This document shows, one piece after another, positions 26,989 through 44,605 of a DNA stretch of 44,749 nt (position 1 is the first letter of the stretch; every line of letters begins with the position of its first letter). The notes under the pieces are model-generated. The model was not told the origin of the DNA and searched no databases. It saw only the letters and a list, made by a program, of their open reading frames with translations. Made by a program: the position numbers and the translations under genes. The stretch is from positions 1-44,749 of the IMG/VR virus record IMGVR_UViG_3300008448_000172, one strand, 5' to 3'. This DNA comes from a virus.

Positions 26989-27003
26989 ACATAAATAATT
27001 TAT

Positions 27004-31746: not shown

Positions 31747-33328
31747 AGAATATATTGTTAGCTTAAATCGAGGTGTGGATTACGACGCTTTCTGGAATCA
31801 AATAGAAAACGAGAGCGAAAACGATTCCTTTGTACCATCTAGACGAGTAGAAATAATTAATAATAGAGATGGTAGCTCACGTAGTTGCCATTATTCTTTA
31901 ACAGATGAAGAAGCGGCAAACTTAAAAAATGATTCTAGAGTTTATTCGGTTGAAATTCCCCCTGATCAAAGAGACGATGTAAAAATTGGTCTAAGAGCTT
32001 TTCAGGTAGGAGACTTTTCAAAAGGAAATTCTTCTTCGGGTGACAGAAGAAACTGGGGATTAAAAAGGATAAACGAAGCAACAAATGTCTATGGCACAGG
32101 TAATACTGCAAATGATATTTACAAGTATATCTTAGATGGCACAGGCGTAGATGTAGTTATACAAGATAGCGGTATTGAAGTTGCTCATCCTGAATTTAAA
32201 GATGATGCGGGCAGCTCAAGAGTACAACAAATAAATTGGTATACTGAAAGTGGCTTAGGTGGAACACAGAATGCAAATCATTACAGAGATTTTGATGGCC
32301 ATGGAACTCACGTAGCAGGAATTGTTGCAGGCAAAACTTTTGGTTGGGCAAAAAATGCAAGAATATATTCCCTGAAGGTTAATGGTCTTGAGGGAGCAGG
32401 CGATACTAACACAGGTATTTCCATTACAGATTGCTTTGATGTAATTAAACTTTGGCATAGAAGAAAACCAATAGATCCTAAAACAGGATTTAGAAGACCA
32501 ACCATTGTTAATATGAGTTGGGGATATAGTTTAACATATTCAAGTGTATCATCTGTAACCTATAGAGGAACAACTTACACTGACGGAAGTACTACAGGAG
32601 ATGCTGCATACCGCTGGACAAATTATGGCTTAGTTAATTTGACCAGTGGAGGAAACTTTGTAACTAATTTTAGATTGGGTTCTGTTGATACAGATATACA
32701 AGAATTAATAGATGAGGGAATACATGTTGTAATTGCGGGTGGAAATAATTATCATAAAATAGATGTACCATCAGGAGTAGATTATAATAATAGTTTTGTA
32801 ACTGGTGGTTCCACATATGAATATCATAGGGGGTCTAGTCCGTATGATGATGAGGCATTAAAGGTTGGAAATATTGATACCATCACTTTTAACGCAGTAC
32901 AAGACCAAAAAGCACATTCAAGTGAAACAGGGCCAGGTATAGATATTTGGGCACCGGGTGCAAACGTAGTAAGTGCAACAAGTAACATTAATGAATATAG
33001 CAATGTTTCATATAATTTAGATTCAGGTTTTAAGCAAATTAATTTAAGCGGTACATCTATGGCAGCCCCGCAGGTATGCGGAGTAGGCGCACTTGTTTTA
33101 CAATTAAATCCAGGATTAACCCCTGCAAATTTAAAGAACTGGTTTGTTACAAAAGCAGTAAGTAATTCGGTTATATATACTTCGAATGTCAACAATGATT
33201 ACACTAATACAAGATCGTTGTTAGGCGGAAATAATAGATTTTTATATAATCCATTTGGTATAGAATCAGATTGTAATTTAGTTGGTCCTGTAACCATTAC
33301 CAATGGAGCATTTACTTTAGAAAAATAA
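31739..33328 (+). CDS. Subtilisin-like serine protease
   Basis: A protein of 529 residues of the S8 (subtilase) family. The catalytic triad is complete: D143 in VVIQDSGIEVAHPEF, H188 in DFDGHGTHVAGIVAG, and S440 in NLSGTSMAAPQVCGVGALV. The oxyanion-type Asn region (VVIAGGNNYHK) is also present. Residues 1-85 are separate from the catalytic domain and resemble an inhibitory propeptide (KEYIVSLNRGVDYDAFWNQI, RVYSVEIPPD). No signal peptide is seen, so secretion through the Sec route is not indicated; it would act in the infected cell or on the virion. Being last in a run of fibre genes and overlapping the Gly-rich protein gene, it may mature a tail protein or degrade host surface protein. Both are inferences. 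Confidence 0.93.
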   Translation: MYKEYIVSLNRGVDYDAFWNQIENESENDSFVPSRRVEIINNRDGSSRSCHYSLTDEEAANLKNDSRVYSVEIPPDQRDDVKIGLRAFQVGDFSKGNSSSGDRRNWGLKRINEATNVYGTGNTANDIYKYILDGTGVDVVIQDSGIEVAHPEFKDDAGSSRVQQINWYTESGLGGTQNANHYRDFDGHGTHVAGIVAGKTFGWAKNARIYSLKVNGLEGAGDTNTGISITDCFDVIKLWHRRKPIDPKTGFRRPTIVNMSWGYSLTYSSVSSVTYRGTTYTDGSTTGDAAYRWTNYGLVNLTSGGNFVTNFRLGSVDTDIQELIDEGIHVVIAGGNNYHKIDVPSGVDYNNSFVTGGSTYEYHRGSSPYDDEALKVGNIDTITFNAVQDQKAHSSETGPGIDIWAPGANVVSATSNINEYSNVSYNLDSGFKQINLSGTSMAAPQVCGVGALVLQLNPGLTPANLKNWFVTKAVSNSVIYTSNVNNDYTNTRSLLGGNNRFLYNPFGIESDCNLVGPVTITNGAFTLEK

Positions 33329-33329
33329 T

Positions 33330-33719
33330 ATGCAATTTGAATTGACTGAAGATAATTTTATTATGTTTGCGGTAAAAAATTACGATAATCCTGGTTGTGT
33401 GGGGATGGATGAATTTTATGATGACTTAAAAAGATTTAAGTATATAAAAAGATTACTTAGAAAACATAATGTTGGTAAAGATTTAAAAGAAAGATTAATT
33501 TTAAATCACATTATAGTTCTTGGTAATTTGTTTGGGGTTGAAGCCACAACTAAAATGTTATTTTTTAAACTTGAGAAAAAGTTTTGGCCTCAGATAAAAA
33601 CCTTTTTAGTATTTCTAAATTATATGCCATTAAAAGTTATAGTATCACCGGGTGTGGAAATTTTAGATATAGACATACCGATCGACGAAAAAATTTTTGA
33701 AACTTTAAAGACAATCTAA
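33330..33719 (+). CDS. Conserved phage protein of unknown function
   Basis: A protein of 129 residues beginning MQFELTEDNFIMFAVKNYDNPGC. The pattern DEFYDDLKRFKYIKRLLRKH, then LKERLILNHIIVLGNLFGVEATTKMLFFKLE and FLVFLNYMP is one I recognise as recurring in hypothetical proteins beside structural genes of marine T4-like phages. It is mostly helical, with no signal peptide, Cys cluster or catalytic motif. It starts one base after the protease stop and ends one base before the next gene, so it is in the same transcript. Function cannot be inferred. Confidence 0.65.
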   Translation: MQFELTEDNFIMFAVKNYDNPGCVGMDEFYDDLKRFKYIKRLLRKHNVGKDLKERLILNHIIVLGNLFGVEATTKMLFFKLEKKFWPQIKTFLVFLNYMPLKVIVSPGVEILDIDIPIDEKIFETLKTI

Positions 33720-33720
33720 T

Positions 33721-34290
33721 ATGGGACGATTTGTAGATTCAATTATTGCTTATAGAATTTTAACATTATTAGTTACTCCTTTTGAAAATACTGAGGCATT
33801 TCGTCGCGGAATAATTGATACCAAAGGCAAAGAATTAAAAAAGATGAGCGATCTTAAATCTGTTGAAGATAGAGACGCTTATACTTTATTACATAGATTA
33901 GTATATAGAATAAAAAGAATAATAGAGAAAGTGCCCATTGATAATAAAAAGATTGTATCTTTAGCTGCGGCATATTCTCTAATTAAAGAACATCTGAATA
34001 ATAATAAAGAACCAATAAATTTAGAAGAACAATATCTTAAAAGACTAGATACTAATCTTAACGAAGAAGTTGCTTATTTAGAAACACTTATGGAAAAGAA
34101 CAAGATGTTTACGTTTAAGCAATTTACTGAGGAAAATGGTCCAGTCGCAGCAGCTCCCGCAAATAACGCAGCAGCTACACCTGGCATTGCAGGTTTAGGA
34201 AAAGATGTACCTGTTAGTGTAAAAGCGCAAAAAAGATATACCTCTAAAAATTCTAAATTTATGTTTAGACGAGGAAAAGTAAATGGCTGA
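33721..34290 (+). CDS. Conserved phage virion-region protein with internal targeting-like motif
   Basis: A protein of 189 residues. The N-terminal 125 residues are helical and conserved in style (GRFVDSIIAYRILTLLVTPF, DAYTLLHRLVYRIKRIIEKVPIDNKK), a type common near the structural genes of marine T4-like phages. Then comes M129 in MFTFKQFTEENG, closely like the starts of the proteins at 1771 and 4039, followed by an Ala/Pro/Asn-rich linker and a basic tail (KRYTSKNSKFMFRRGK). The internal ATG at 34105 could start a separate 61-residue protein, but no good ribosome-binding site precedes it. It overlaps the next gene by 8 bases. A virion location is likely; function unknown. Confidence 0.6.
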   Translation: MGRFVDSIIAYRILTLLVTPFENTEAFRRGIIDTKGKELKKMSDLKSVEDRDAYTLLHRLVYRIKRIIEKVPIDNKKIVSLAAAYSLIKEHLNNNKEPINLEEQYLKRLDTNLNEEVAYLETLMEKNKMFTFKQFTEENGPVAAAPANNAAATPGIAGLGKDVPVSVKAQKRYTSKNSKFMFRRGKVNG

Positions 34291-34624
34291 GCAAAAGATT
34301 AGAGATCTAGATACAGATATTAGAGTGTCTGTTTTAGAAACTCAGGTTAATTCGTTAACTCATGATCTTGAGAAAATAGAAAAGAAAATTGATGATAACT
34401 ATTCAGTTCTCCACACCAGAATAAATGAATTGGATGAGGCGTTTGAAATAAAAAATGAAAAGATATTGAAAAAGATAGATGACCATAGTTTGGCAAGCAC
34501 CCAACACACCAGAGAACTTTTGGATAAGATTAATAAAATCGAAAAATGGAGATGGATGATTATGGGCGGGGCCTTGGTTGCTGGTTATGTTCTGGCACAT
34601 ATTAGAATGGAAAATCTATTTTAA
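34283..34624 (+). CDS. Coiled-coil protein with C-terminal membrane segment
   Basis: A protein of 113 residues. Residues 10-90 are a long heptad-rich helix (VSVLETQVNSLTHDLEKIEKKI, ILKKIDDHSLASTQHTRELLDKINKIEK). Residues 92-107 (WRWMIMGGALVAGYVLAH) form a single membrane-spanning segment with a short tail. This is the layout of XhlA-type haemolysin or holin-accessory proteins and of some phage membrane anchors. There is no signal peptide, so it should be anchored by its C-terminal tail in the inner membrane. It is the last gene before the early promoter at 34628. A lysis-related role is possible but not shown. Confidence 0.6.
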   Translation: MAEQKIRDLDTDIRVSVLETQVNSLTHDLEKIEKKIDDNYSVLHTRINELDEAFEIKNEKILKKIDDHSLASTQHTRELLDKINKIEKWRWMIMGGALVAGYVLAHIRMENLF

Positions 34625-34627
34625 CAC

Positions 34628-34656
34628 TTGACATTCTACCTGTGATATAATATAAT
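34628..34656 (+). promoter_or_regulatory. Perfect sigma70-type promoter
   Basis: TTGACA at 34628-34633 and TATAAT at 34651-34656 are exact consensus hexamers with the ideal 17-base spacing. It lies between the last gene of the late block and the primase gene, in one of only a few gaps. It would give strong early expression from unmodified host RNA polymerase. The expected start point near 34663 falls inside the hairpin described next, so part of that stem may or may not be transcribed. Confidence 0.8.
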
Positions 34657-34679
34657 TTAGGCTTATATAGGAGCCTAAA
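34656..34679 (+). promoter_or_regulatory. Hairpin overlapping the primase ribosome-binding site
   Basis: TTTAGGCT (34656-34663) and AGCCTAAA (34672-34679) are perfect complements around an 8-base loop. The AGGAG ribosome-binding site (34669-34673) lies partly in the loop and partly in the stem, and the first base of the ATG is the last stem base. Such hairpins at the translation start are used as operators by phage translational repressors (for example the gene 43 operator of T4/RB69). Whether it is in the mRNA depends on the start point: full only in read-through transcripts from upstream. Confidence 0.6.
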
Positions 34680-35701
34680 TGTCTTTATTTGTCGATCTAA
34701 AATATTTAAAATTAGTTAGTTCACAACTGCCCCTTTTTAAACAAAAGGGCGATCATCTATATAATTGCAGATGTATCATCTGTGGTGATTCTTCCAAAAA
34801 GAAAAATAGAGCAAGGGGATACTTTTACTCATCGAAGAACGAACTGTATTATAAGTGTCACAATTGCAGCGCTTCTATGCACTTTGGTTCATTTCTAAAA
34901 CAGTTTTTTAATGTACAATATAATCATTATGCTTTAGAAAGATATGGTCAAGGAATTCCAAAAAATAAACCTCATCAAAGTGTTGAGGAAAAATTTAAAA
35001 TGGCTGAACCTGTTTTTGAAAAGAAAACCGAAAGACTTATTGATAAAATTTTAGATAGAGTAGATACCTTACCCGAGGATCATATTGCAGTAAAGTTTTG
35101 CGAAAAAAGAAAAATTCCTGTAGAAAAGTATGAGGATATATACTTCATTGATAATGTTAAAAACATAGAACAACTAAGTGAAAAATATAAAAACAAAATA
35201 GAAACAAGTGAGCCTAGACTCGTACTTCCTTTTTATGACAGAGATGGGCAAATGACGGGAGTTACTTGCAGGGCATTAGGAAAAGAAACTCTAAGATATT
35301 TGACTATTAAAGTTAAAGAAGATGAAATACTCGCATTTAATTTAGATAAGGTAAATACTGAAAAAGATATTTTTGTAGTTGAAGGTCCTATTGATAGTTT
35401 GTTTTTGCCTAACGCTATTGCAGTAGCAGGAACAGCATTTGTTAAACTTAACACACTTGATTTGCCTAAAGATAAATTAACAGTTATTTTAGATAATCAA
35501 CCTCGCAATAAAGATGTTTGTAAAATAATAGATAAAATGATCGACGGCGGATATAAAGTAGTTATCTGGCCTCAGTCATTGGTGGAAAAAGATATTAATG
35601 ACATGGTGCTTGCTGGTAAGAAACCATTAGATATAATTAAAAAGAGTACATATCAGGGACTTGAAGCAAAAATTAAATTCACTGAATGGAAGAGGTGCTA
35701 A
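34679..35701 (+). CDS. 61: DNA primase, T4 gp61 type
   Basis: A protein of 340 residues, the size of T4 gp61, which makes RNA primers at the replication fork with the gp41 helicase. The N-terminal zinc-binding domain is visible: C32xxC35 in CRCIICGDSSKKK and C60xxC63 in YYKCHNCSAS, with a GYFY strand between. The catalytic TOPRIM-like domain has the acidic signature VVEGPIDSLFL (E235, D239) and AVAGTAF, then VILDNQ with D272. The C-terminus (IIDKMIDGGYKVVIWPQ, EKDINDMVLAG) continues the TOPRIM fold. It follows a perfect sigma70-type promoter and a hairpin over its start, so it is the first gene of the early block in this window. Confidence 0.88.
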   Translation: MSLFVDLKYLKLVSSQLPLFKQKGDHLYNCRCIICGDSSKKKNRARGYFYSSKNELYYKCHNCSASMHFGSFLKQFFNVQYNHYALERYGQGIPKNKPHQSVEEKFKMAEPVFEKKTERLIDKILDRVDTLPEDHIAVKFCEKRKIPVEKYEDIYFIDNVKNIEQLSEKYKNKIETSEPRLVLPFYDRDGQMTGVTCRALGKETLRYLTIKVKEDEILAFNLDKVNTEKDIFVVEGPIDSLFLPNAIAVAGTAFVKLNTLDLPKDKLTVILDNQPRNKDVCKIIDKMIDGGYKVVIWPQSLVEKDINDMVLAGKKPLDIIKKSTYQGLEAKIKFTEWKRC

Positions 35702-36409
35702 ATGAAGGTTTACATTAACAAATACAAAGATCATTGGATAAGTCCATATACAGTAATTGATCGCATTTTCTTCTGGACTGAATGGTCCAAGTGCAGTCGT
35801 GATCGTAGTGCTATTATTGATGATGCCAAATATGTCGAGCATCCTGAATGGGTAGATAAACTAGCAGACTTTTTAAATCCAATTTCTGTAGCTATTCAAT
35901 CGGTGTTAGATAAAATTGATCGCAAGATTGATTATGTTAAAATTGATCGTTGGGATACTTGGAGTATGGACAATACTTTAAGTCATATTGTTCTACCTAT
36001 GCTAAAACAACTAAAAGAAACTAAGCATGGTTCTCCCTATGTAGACGATGATGACGTACCAGAAGAATTAAGATCAACGTCTGCTCCTCCTAGAAAAAAT
36101 GAATGGGATACAGATGATAATCATTTTAAGCGTTGGGATTATGTTCTTGATGAGATGATCTTTGCCTTTGAGCATAAAGTTAGTGATGATTGGCAAGATA
36201 ATTTCCGTTCCGGTGAAATTGATATGATCTGGACACCCGTTGATGCGGATGGTAAAGAAGTACCAAAGGGAGAGCATAAATTTTATACGATGAAAGATGG
36301 ACCTAAGCACACATATGTTTGTGACTATGATGGAATAAAGGCGATCGAAGATCGTATGCAGAATGGTTTTAGACTTTTCGGAAAATACTATCAAGGATTG
36401 TGGGACTAG
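35702..36409 (+). CDS. Conserved phage protein of unknown function
   Basis: A protein of 235 residues that starts directly after the primase stop. It begins MKVYINKYKDHWISPYTVIDRIFFW and contains WDTWSMDNTLSHIVLPMLKQLKE, RWDYVLDEMIFAFEH and NGFRLFGKYYQGLWD. The pattern is familiar from many marine and other large phages as an uncharacterised protein; it is rich in Trp, Asp and His and has an acidic linker (YVDDDDVPEEL). No catalytic motif I can name, no membrane segment. A role in early metabolism is suggested only by position. Confidence 0.65.
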   Translation: MKVYINKYKDHWISPYTVIDRIFFWTEWSKCSRDRSAIIDDAKYVEHPEWVDKLADFLNPISVAIQSVLDKIDRKIDYVKIDRWDTWSMDNTLSHIVLPMLKQLKETKHGSPYVDDDDVPEELRSTSAPPRKNEWDTDDNHFKRWDYVLDEMIFAFEHKVSDDWQDNFRSGEIDMIWTPVDADGKEVPKGEHKFYTMKDGPKHTYVCDYDGIKAIEDRMQNGFRLFGKYYQGLWD

Positions 36410-36411
36410 AA

Positions 36412-36579
36412 ATGACGATAGAACAAGAAAGAGCGTTTAACGATTGGTGGAATAAGTACTATAAATCTTCCAGCGATATACAAATAAAAGAAGCTGCAAA
36501 AGAAGCTTGGATTGCGGCAGTAGAATACTCAGAAAATAAAAGTGATAGAAATTTTAGATGGGATGGTATTATTAAATGA
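36412..36579 (+). CDS. Small conserved-type phage protein
   Basis: A 55-residue protein starting with ATG at 36412, two bases after the previous stop, and ending with TGA that overlaps the thyX start (ATGA). The sequence is MTIEQERAFNDWWNKYY followed by an Ala/Glu-rich helix and a NFRWDGIIK end. The pattern of Trp/Tyr residues and the Ala-rich helix resemble small helical phage proteins. No known function. Tight coupling on both sides supports a real gene. Confidence 0.65.
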   Translation: MTIEQERAFNDWWNKYYKSSSDIQIKEAAKEAWIAAVEYSENKSDRNFRWDGIIK

Positions 36580-37244
36580 AAGTAAATTTGATTAGCTATT
36601 CCGAACCTGCAGGAACAATGCCGGCGGATATTGATAACATGCAAGACTTGGTGGCATATTGTGCAAGAGTTTCAAATCCATCAAACCAACTTAATACGGA
36701 AACTTCTGAAAAATTAATCAGATATCTAATTAAAAATCAGCACTGGTCTCCATTGGAAATGGTGAGTGTTTGTCTTGAGATAATAACCACACGAGATATT
36801 GCTAGACAAATGCTTAGACACAGAAGTTTTAGTTTTCAAGAGTTTAGCCAAAGATATGCAGACCCCGTACAGGAGTTAGAATTTGTAACTCGTGAAGCAA
36901 GATTGCAGGATACGAAAAATCGTCAGAACAGCATAGAGATGAATTTTTCTAATACTGAACATAGAGAAATCTCAAGGCTCTGGCAAGAAAAACAACAAGA
37001 AATTATCAGATTGGCCAAGGAAAATTACGTTTGGGCCATAAATAATGGTATAGCTAAAGAACAGGCCAGGGCTGTTCTGCCCGAAGGCCTTACTACTAGC
37101 CGACTGTATATGTCCGGAACTCTACGGAGCTGGATACATTATATACAACTTAGGTCGGAAAACGGAACACAAAAAGAACACGCGGAAATAGCAAAGGCTT
37201 GTGCCGAAGTCATTTCCTCTATTTTCCCAATGATTAAAGAGTAA
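36576..37244 (+). CDS. thyX: Flavin-dependent thymidylate synthase
   Basis: A protein of 222 residues, the usual ThyX length. ThyX makes dTMP from dUMP with FAD, NADPH and methylene-tetrahydrofolate. The signature RHRxxSxxExSxRY is perfect: RHRSFSFQEFSQRY at residues 81-94. Also typical are HWSPLEMVSVCLEI near the N-terminal half and ARAVLPEGLTTSRLYMSGTLRSWIHYIQLR, which holds the dUMP-binding and catalytic Ser/Arg residues. Together with NrdAB and dCMP deaminase downstream it makes a full route to dTTP for phage DNA. The start overlaps the small gene upstream by four bases. Confidence 0.95.
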   Translation: MKVNLISYSEPAGTMPADIDNMQDLVAYCARVSNPSNQLNTETSEKLIRYLIKNQHWSPLEMVSVCLEIITTRDIARQMLRHRSFSFQEFSQRYADPVQELEFVTREARLQDTKNRQNSIEMNFSNTEHREISRLWQEKQQEIIRLAKENYVWAINNGIAKEQARAVLPEGLTTSRLYMSGTLRSWIHYIQLRSENGTQKEHAEIAKACAEVISSIFPMIKE

Positions 37245-43572: not shown

Positions 43573-43968
43573 ATGTGGTTATATAAAGATGTTCCCTTAG
43601 AGGAAATTCCTGAAAATGCATATGGATATGTTTATTTGATAACAAACAATGTTACGGGTAAAAAATACATAGGTAAAAAATTGTTTTGGTTTAAAAAAAC
43701 TAAAACGGTTAAAGGCAAAAAGAAAAGATTAAAAGCAGAATCTGATTGGAGAGAATATTGGTCTTCATCTGATGATGTAAAGAAAGATGTAGAGACCTAC
43801 GGTAAAGATAATTTCATTCGAGAAATTCTTCATATCTGCCCTAATAAAGGATCATGTAATTATTTAGAAGCACGAGAACAAATGGATAGAAGAGTTCTTG
43901 AAACGGATGAATATTATAATGGTCAGATTCAATGCAGAGTACATAGAACACATATTAAGGTAAAATAA
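43573..43968 (+). CDS. GIY-YIG endonuclease-like protein (SegE type)
   Basis: A protein of 131 residues. The GIY-YIG signature is present as YGYVYLITN (17-25) and KKYIGKKL (30-37). A conserved Glu lies in NYLEAREQMDRRVLE and basic residues in the central part. Its layout resembles the phage SegE-like GIY-YIG family, whose members include homing endonucleases. The GIY triplet is GYVY here, a usual variation. No separate DNA-recognition domain is present, so activity may be limited or different. An AATAAATA at 43543-43550 lies upstream inside the previous gene. Confidence 0.75.
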   Translation: MWLYKDVPLEEIPENAYGYVYLITNNVTGKKYIGKKLFWFKKTKTVKGKKKRLKAESDWREYWSSSDDVKKDVETYGKDNFIREILHICPNKGSCNYLEAREQMDRRVLETDEYYNGQIQCRVHRTHIKVK

Positions 43969-43972
43969 TATT

Positions 43973-44605
43973 ATGTCATTTTTAGTTGCGAACACGCCAC
44001 CTGTTCATTGTTATATTCGTAAAGAATTTCTCTATGATTTTGAAAAAGGACACGGGGAATTTGAACCTTGTGTCTGGGTATCAATAAAAAGTATACGAGG
44101 ACAAGCATTTAGAATAGAAGCATATTTACCTAATTACGGAGCTTTATATGATAAATTACCTTTACACGCTTTCGTTAGTAGAACAGAAAATCTACCTGGA
44201 GAATTTTTACCGCTAGACACTCTGCAAATTTGGGATTGCTTTGATTATGATATTGCGATCATACAAAAGGCATTTCTAAGTAATTTAAGTTGCAAATTCT
44301 ATGCGAAAGATAAAAATTTCTACACAGGTAACTATCTGTTTACCGTCGACAATGCACATCCTGATAGAAATATAATCGACATGGGATACAGCGAATGGCC
44401 AGAGGATCATAAAAGCTTTAACTTTATTGAATTGGATAATGGTCAATACGCAGCACAACCTAATAATCGTTGTTTATTCTTCGATGCAGCAAGCAATCCA
44501 AAAGAATTAAAATTCCCAGACTTTAAAGTGTGTACTAAGAAATATATTGTAGAGCAAAATCCTAAATGGTCGTTGGGGGATTCAACAACAGTAATGTATG
44601 AATAA
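43973..44605 (+). CDS. Conserved phage protein of unknown function
   Basis: A protein of 210 residues that begins MSFLVANTPPVHCYIRKEFLYD and contains KGHGEFEPCVWVSIKSIRGQAF, YGALYDKLPLHAFVS and IQIWDCFDYDIAI-like text (LQIWDCFDYDIAI). The pattern recurs in marine T4-like phages beside replication genes and is annotated as hypothetical. Its N-x-G-Q-Y-A-A-Q-P-N-N-R near the end (DNGQYAAQPNNR) is also typical. It is beta-rich, with no membrane segment or obvious catalytic motif. It overlaps the next gene by 8 bases. Confidence 0.7.
   Translation: MSFLVANTPPVHCYIRKEFLYDFEKGHGEFEPCVWVSIKSIRGQAFRIEAYLPNYGALYDKLPLHAFVSRTENLPGEFLPLDTLQIWDCFDYDIAIIQKAFLSNLSCKFYAKDKNFYTGNYLFTVDNAHPDRNIIDMGYSEWPEDHKSFNFIELDNGQYAAQPNNRCLFFDAASNPKELKFPDFKVCTKKYIVEQNPKWSLGDSTTVMYE

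Follow-up and report, generated by a model that had tools for sequence, protein, structure and literature searches.

The DNA primase gene of a T4-like freshwater phage probably carries a cis-acting lock that would keep it from being translated out of read-through transcripts. In the window, i.e., the whole virus record of 44,749 bases that we analysed, a strong sigma70 promoter is sited such that the predicted start of transcription falls within the 5' arm of an inverted repeat or immediately behind it. Messages from this promoter would lack that arm, leaving AGGAG and the AUG open for translation, whereas read-through messages from the upstream structural (late) genes would have both arms, cover the ribosome-binding site and the AUG with a 9-10-bp hairpin, and yield little primase. 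The promoter, the hairpin, the tandem gene context and the excess of native pairing in relatives are read directly from the sequences, and the lock logic is supported as an architecture, for which the transcription start site and the size of the effect are predicted.

Promoter and hairpin before the primase gene

The main genes of the window all lie on the + strand, on which tail and other structural genes, extending to 33328, are followed by two small unknown proteins, a 113-aa protein, the primase, thyX, nrdA and nrdB (Table 1). The primase has matches in 2,355 phage records, and the 54-nt gap between it and the holin-like gene contains both the promoter and the inverted repeat. A nucleotide search of cultured phages returned no near relative of the window. 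Two near-identical contigs have bases missing, through assembly error or real variation: L003 lacks 94 bases within thyX (window 36773-36866), which is not a multiple of three, and L002 is about 53 bases short at the end of gene 33721-34290 (window 34246-34298). Elsewhere in the window, a ferredoxin-type phage gene (phrog_3704; 43973-44605) adjoins a homing-endonuclease-like gene (43573-43968) that also matches an 'NAD synthetase' PHROG.

Table 1. Features at the primase start and late-promoter-like motifs, in window coordinates
Feature	Position	Strand	Remark
113-aa coiled-coil protein, C-terminal membrane segment, XhlA/holin-like	34283..34624	+	weak matches; tandem upstream of primase
-35 hexamer TTGACA, perfect	34628..34633	+	sequence; identical in L329
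Alternative extended -10, TGaTATAAT, overlapping main promoter	34643..34651	+	sequence; absent from L329
-10 hexamer TATAAT, perfect, 17-nt spacing	34651..34656	+	sequence; identical in L329
Hairpin 5' arm, ATTTAGGCT	34655..34663	+	upstream of main promoter's predicted start site (34662-34665)
Hairpin loop, TATATAGG	34664..34671	+	U34664.G34671 may pair
Shine-Dalgarno AGGAG	34669..34673	+	5 nt before ATG; kept in L329
Hairpin 3' arm, AGCCTAAAT	34672..34680	+	contains end of Shine-Dalgarno and AU of start codon
T4-like DNA primase, gp61 type, 340 aa	34679..35701	+	phrog_47 DNA primase, E 4e-75
NATAAATA motifs	1737, 5322, 14446, 26990, 43543	+	before genes 1771, 5358, 14478, 27004, 43573; like T4 late promoters
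Nearest late-promoter-like motif upstream of primase, CATAAATA	26990..26997	+	14 nt before gene 27004

The perfect sigma70 promoter TTGACA-17-TATAAT (34628-34656) that an earlier note on this DNA had described is confirmed in the sequence, and so is its rarity, with a single occurrence of TTGACA-N15-19-TATAAT in the window and 0.09 expected from dinucleotide shuffles. This promoter predicts the +1 at 34662-34665. The extended -10 that overlaps it was overlooked in that note; RNA from it could begin some 5 nt earlier, near 34658-34660.

The hairpin is likewise real and slightly larger than the 8-bp perfect stem first described, with 9 perfect base pairs plus the U34664.G34671 pair. It had been said to enclose the ribosome-binding site and the A of the ATG; both the A and the U of the AUG (34679-34680) lie in the stem, while AGGAG is split half into the loop and half into the stem. 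The primase start is the most structured of the window's 39 gene starts at -12.8 kcal/mol, the next reaching -8.3 and most lying between 0 and -5. Against shuffles, the core from the -35 to the AUG gives p = 0.023; the z-score is -2.7 for 34640-34700 and -0.9 for a wider stretch, and the swap test described below gives 0.066/0.021 for the window's own hairpin. Taken from the window alone, the evidence for the hairpin is modest. A search of 33000-37000 against Rfam gave two matches, both below the gathering score and neither at the hairpin.

In read-through RNA, opening the Shine-Dalgarno and AUG is computed to cost 11.7-12.5 kcal/mol and the unpaired probability is about 0 for 34671-34678, i.e., the ribosome-binding site and AUG are predicted to be paired as in hairpins of the T4 type. 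The computed cost is 2.8-3.0 kcal/mol for RNA starting at 34662-34665, and 7-8 kcal/mol for RNA starting at 34658-34660, which retains 5-7 stem pairs; the outcome thus turns on which side of 34661 RNA begins. From the main promoter the start is predicted after this position and from the extended -10 before it, and a start from the latter would retain part of the stem, which is a counterpoint to the lock. The claim that own-promoter RNA is open and read-through RNA shut thus stands as regards geometry (about 3 versus about 12 kcal/mol, with the pairing kept in relatives), the start site itself being a prediction.

Pairing at the primase starts of related phages

About 430 primase loci were taken from IMG/VR, some of them the same contig more than once, and 203 were left after removal of near-identical upstream regions. 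A recognisable sigma70 promoter lies within about 75 nt of the primase start in 187 of the 203, and the promoter is therefore a general feature. The perfect form, TTGACA-N17-TATAAT, has 53 sites in the 1.49 Mb of primase loci, 19 of them within 60 nt upstream of primase. The upstream gene is in tandem with primase in 176 of 184 loci (the other 8 were called divergent, some on doubtful ORF calls), and the coiled-coil/holin-like gene type precedes primase in relatives as well. A perfect sigma70 consensus also recurs at two places inside the primase gene, within ORF nt 820-960 (L009, L016, L152, L333, L372, L080, L307 and L409); the codons that spell out recurrent peptides (I/LDKxI...YNV; LTxEEIxxII) account for these sites, which were rejected as real promoters, being probably a coincidence.

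In the swap test, the promoter-side and start-side halves of each locus were co-folded and compared with halves exchanged among loci, which preserves the composition of the promoter and the ribosome site. Mean coupling was -6.1 kcal/mol for native and -3.9 kcal/mol for swapped halves (n = 187). The best 5% held 42 of the 187 primase starts, with 9 expected, and the binomial p of 2e-16 treats related loci as independent and is therefore too small, the comparison with other gene starts being the safer argument. With fixed geometry, the best 5% contained 35 and 42 primase starts and just 9 and 8 of 187 other gene starts drawn from these loci; the excess pairing is specific to primase starts, and other starts are at chance level. 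Independent shuffling gave 22 of 162 loci at p <= 0.01. At the 0.07 level 50 of the 187 loci are coupled, most relatives being individually non-significant and the L065-group cyanophages mostly not coupled. In 45 of the 50 coupled loci, 80% or more of the 5' arm precedes the predicted +1.

The nearest relative, L329 (primase 74% identical), keeps both hexamers and the 17-nt spacing with just 7 of 17 spacer bases in common with the window, and it retains AGGAG as well as the stem (TTTAGGCT/AGTCTAAA), with one G-C pair replaced by G.U. At the same place L333 has a different stem, AAGACTC/GAGTCTT, and L254, L004, L336 and L337 have other stem sequences followed by U-tracts. Pairing kept with different letters in related phages suggests that it is selected. 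L331 has no comparable hairpin. Among cultured phages, Melnitz and Mosig have a TTGACA promoter directly before primase with no clear hairpin by eye, the Melnitz primase message being apparently leaderless, and Synechococcus phage DSL-LC02 has a repeat of 5 bp at most. T4 itself (RB59) was considered and set aside; its gene 61 starts 2 nt after 61.1 within an operon, so there is no such arrangement there. In L334, TACAGGCT and AGCCTGTA, located about 50 nt upstream of the primase ribosome site and at that site, could by eye pair, enclosing a loop of about 50 nt and masking the Shine-Dalgarno.

The modest significance in the window itself and the hairpin's absence or insignificance in most relatives would fit a chance or weakly selected structure, functionless in this phage, next to a real and conserved promoter. 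We consider this improbable, given that the hairpin is kept in L329 through a G.U-compatible change and in L333 through a different stem sequence, that the window's primase start is an outlier among its gene starts, and that the excess pairing is specific to primase. The inverted repeat could also act as DNA, as an operator binding a dimeric repressor or activator, since inverted repeats near the -10 are the usual operator layout and the repeat brackets the -10 in many relatives. The repeats, however, have no common sequence, they keep their 5' arm ahead of the predicted start site even though they sit at no fixed place with respect to the -10, the G.U pairs of L329 and L085 preserve symmetry in RNA and not in DNA, and the U-tracts and the overlap with Shine-Dalgarno or AUG point to RNA, which makes an operator very improbable.

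Late transcription and the output of the hairpin

The lock on read-through RNA presupposes transcription arriving from upstream, where the structural genes lie on the same strand as primase and have T4-type late-promoter motifs. In the window, five of eight NATAAATA motifs are located 14-36 nt before gene starts (4% expected, p 7e-6). The TATAAATA sequence itself has 2 occurrences in the window, fewer than the 8 in shuffles. These late-type motifs make it plausible that late RNA from the tail genes reaches primase. Outside genes, the hairpin is the sole terminator-like site that the + strand has from the structural genes to primase. Two reports on marine T4-like phages treat sigma70 promoters as early (PMC3037559, PMC9004378), and from the sequence we infer early-on, late-off timing for primase.

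The same hairpin might instead serve the upstream late unit as its intrinsic terminator, which overlaps the primase promoter for want of space, its overlap with the ribosome-binding site being incidental. Intrinsic terminators have a G+C-rich stem-loop; the window's stem has 10 pairs, of which only 3 are G-C. A scanner calls the window's hairpin terminator-like, no other such non-genic site precedes primase on that strand, and about 5-8 U directly follow the stem in L254 (GGCTC/GAGCC then UUUUU), L004, L336, L337 and the L010 group; the L009 group also has a U-tract there. Against this, the tract after the stem is a poor U-tract or none in the window (GUCUUUAUUU), L329 (GUCCUUAUUU) and L333 (ACAUUGUC), and in the leaderless group (L308 and others) the stem is followed by coding sequence, not U. 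We regard a terminator with incidental overlap as rather unlikely for the window, where the read-through lock would act mainly on translation because no good U-tract follows the stem.

In sister lineages the same hairpin also resembles an intrinsic terminator of the upstream unit. The window and L329 join first in the primase tree, then L333, then L254; together with the stem comparison, this places a hairpin without a U-tract in the window lineage, as it seems, and a terminator-like element in its sisters. Since a U-tract follows the hairpin in L254, L004, L336 and L337, read-through there would more likely be ended by termination than by ribosome exclusion.

Across the coupled loci the 3' arm covers the Shine-Dalgarno, covers the start codon of a message predicted to be leaderless, or runs into a terminator-like U-tract. 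Automatic classification of the 50 loci gave 26 with the AUG in the stem, 12 with the Shine-Dalgarno, 7 terminators and 5 others, in which the terminator count is an underestimate, as the AUG class takes in U-tract hairpins whose flanks extend the pairing to the AUG (L254, L004, L337, L093). In L308, L312, L409 and L421 the ATG follows the -10 by 6-7 nt, which should make the message leaderless; this ATG is part of a 15-17-bp stem that can form only with sequence from upstream of the start. In these four and their relatives, in the region 40 nt before the primase start, the stem reaches across the -10, which sits in its loop, to the ATG. Fixed-register covariation in this leaderless clade gave a percentage of paired positions above shuffles (0/500 and 1/500); pair counts were weak and double-change counts were not above shuffles, because only a subgroup shares the register, and the swap test was used instead of such counts.

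Environmental T4-like phages may have repeatedly evolved a cis-acting lock at primase starts, a generalization to which we give even credence. An anti-start arm, built from whatever the local sequence is, would lie just upstream of the transcription start, so that only own-promoter RNA would be usable, with interchangeable outputs of termination, Shine-Dalgarno occlusion or leaderless-AUG occlusion (stem up to about 16 bp in L308, L312, L409 and L280).

Relation to known hairpin controls

In the transposase genes of IS10 and IS50, a hairpin present only in RNA started outside blocks translation and the own-promoter transcript lacks one arm; they differ from the primase case in that they belong to mobile elements and the arm derives from the element's end sequence. 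For T4 e (lysozyme), soc, 49 and I-TevI, the principle is established that upstream-initiated RNA folds over the Shine-Dalgarno and AUG (PMC3014915, PMC2988022). As in those genes, the phage is T4-like, the promoter here would lie in the 5' arm, and own transcripts are predicted from sequence to lack the arm and be translated. The T4 examples, in contrast, are late genes whose early RNA is locked, whereas primase, an early gene of replication, has a sigma70 promoter, and the RNA locked there would be late read-through. A late promoter (TATAAATA) with early or middle RNA locked belongs to the T4 type, while primase has TTGACA-17-TATAAT and the late motifs are found upstream at structural genes; the primase hairpin would thus work like the T4 cases without being one of them, and we class it as a variant of the principle and not as a member of the set. 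Unlike the T4 genes, relatives of the window would have other outputs, namely termination or a hidden AUG in messages predicted to be leaderless.

Aeromonas phage Aeh1 mobE and T4 segB share with primase a ribosome-binding site sequestered only in upstream-initiated transcripts, but they encode homing endonucleases and have late promoters that lie inside early or middle units (PMC2988022). Early promoters of marine T4-like phages have consensus sigma70 sequences, as here, and the consulted parts of those reports describe no overlapping primase hairpin (PMC3037559, PMC9004378). The use of the T4-type hairpin principle with opposite timing at an early replication gene would appear to be new. If true, dense one-direction phage genomes could keep late transcription apart from an early replication gene with no protein, dedicated terminator or spare DNA. 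The loci offer examples that are defined by sequence and open to test, among them leaderless messages with a start codon that would be hidden only in read-through RNA, and the T4 hairpin principle would be extended from late proteins kept out early to a replication protein kept out late.
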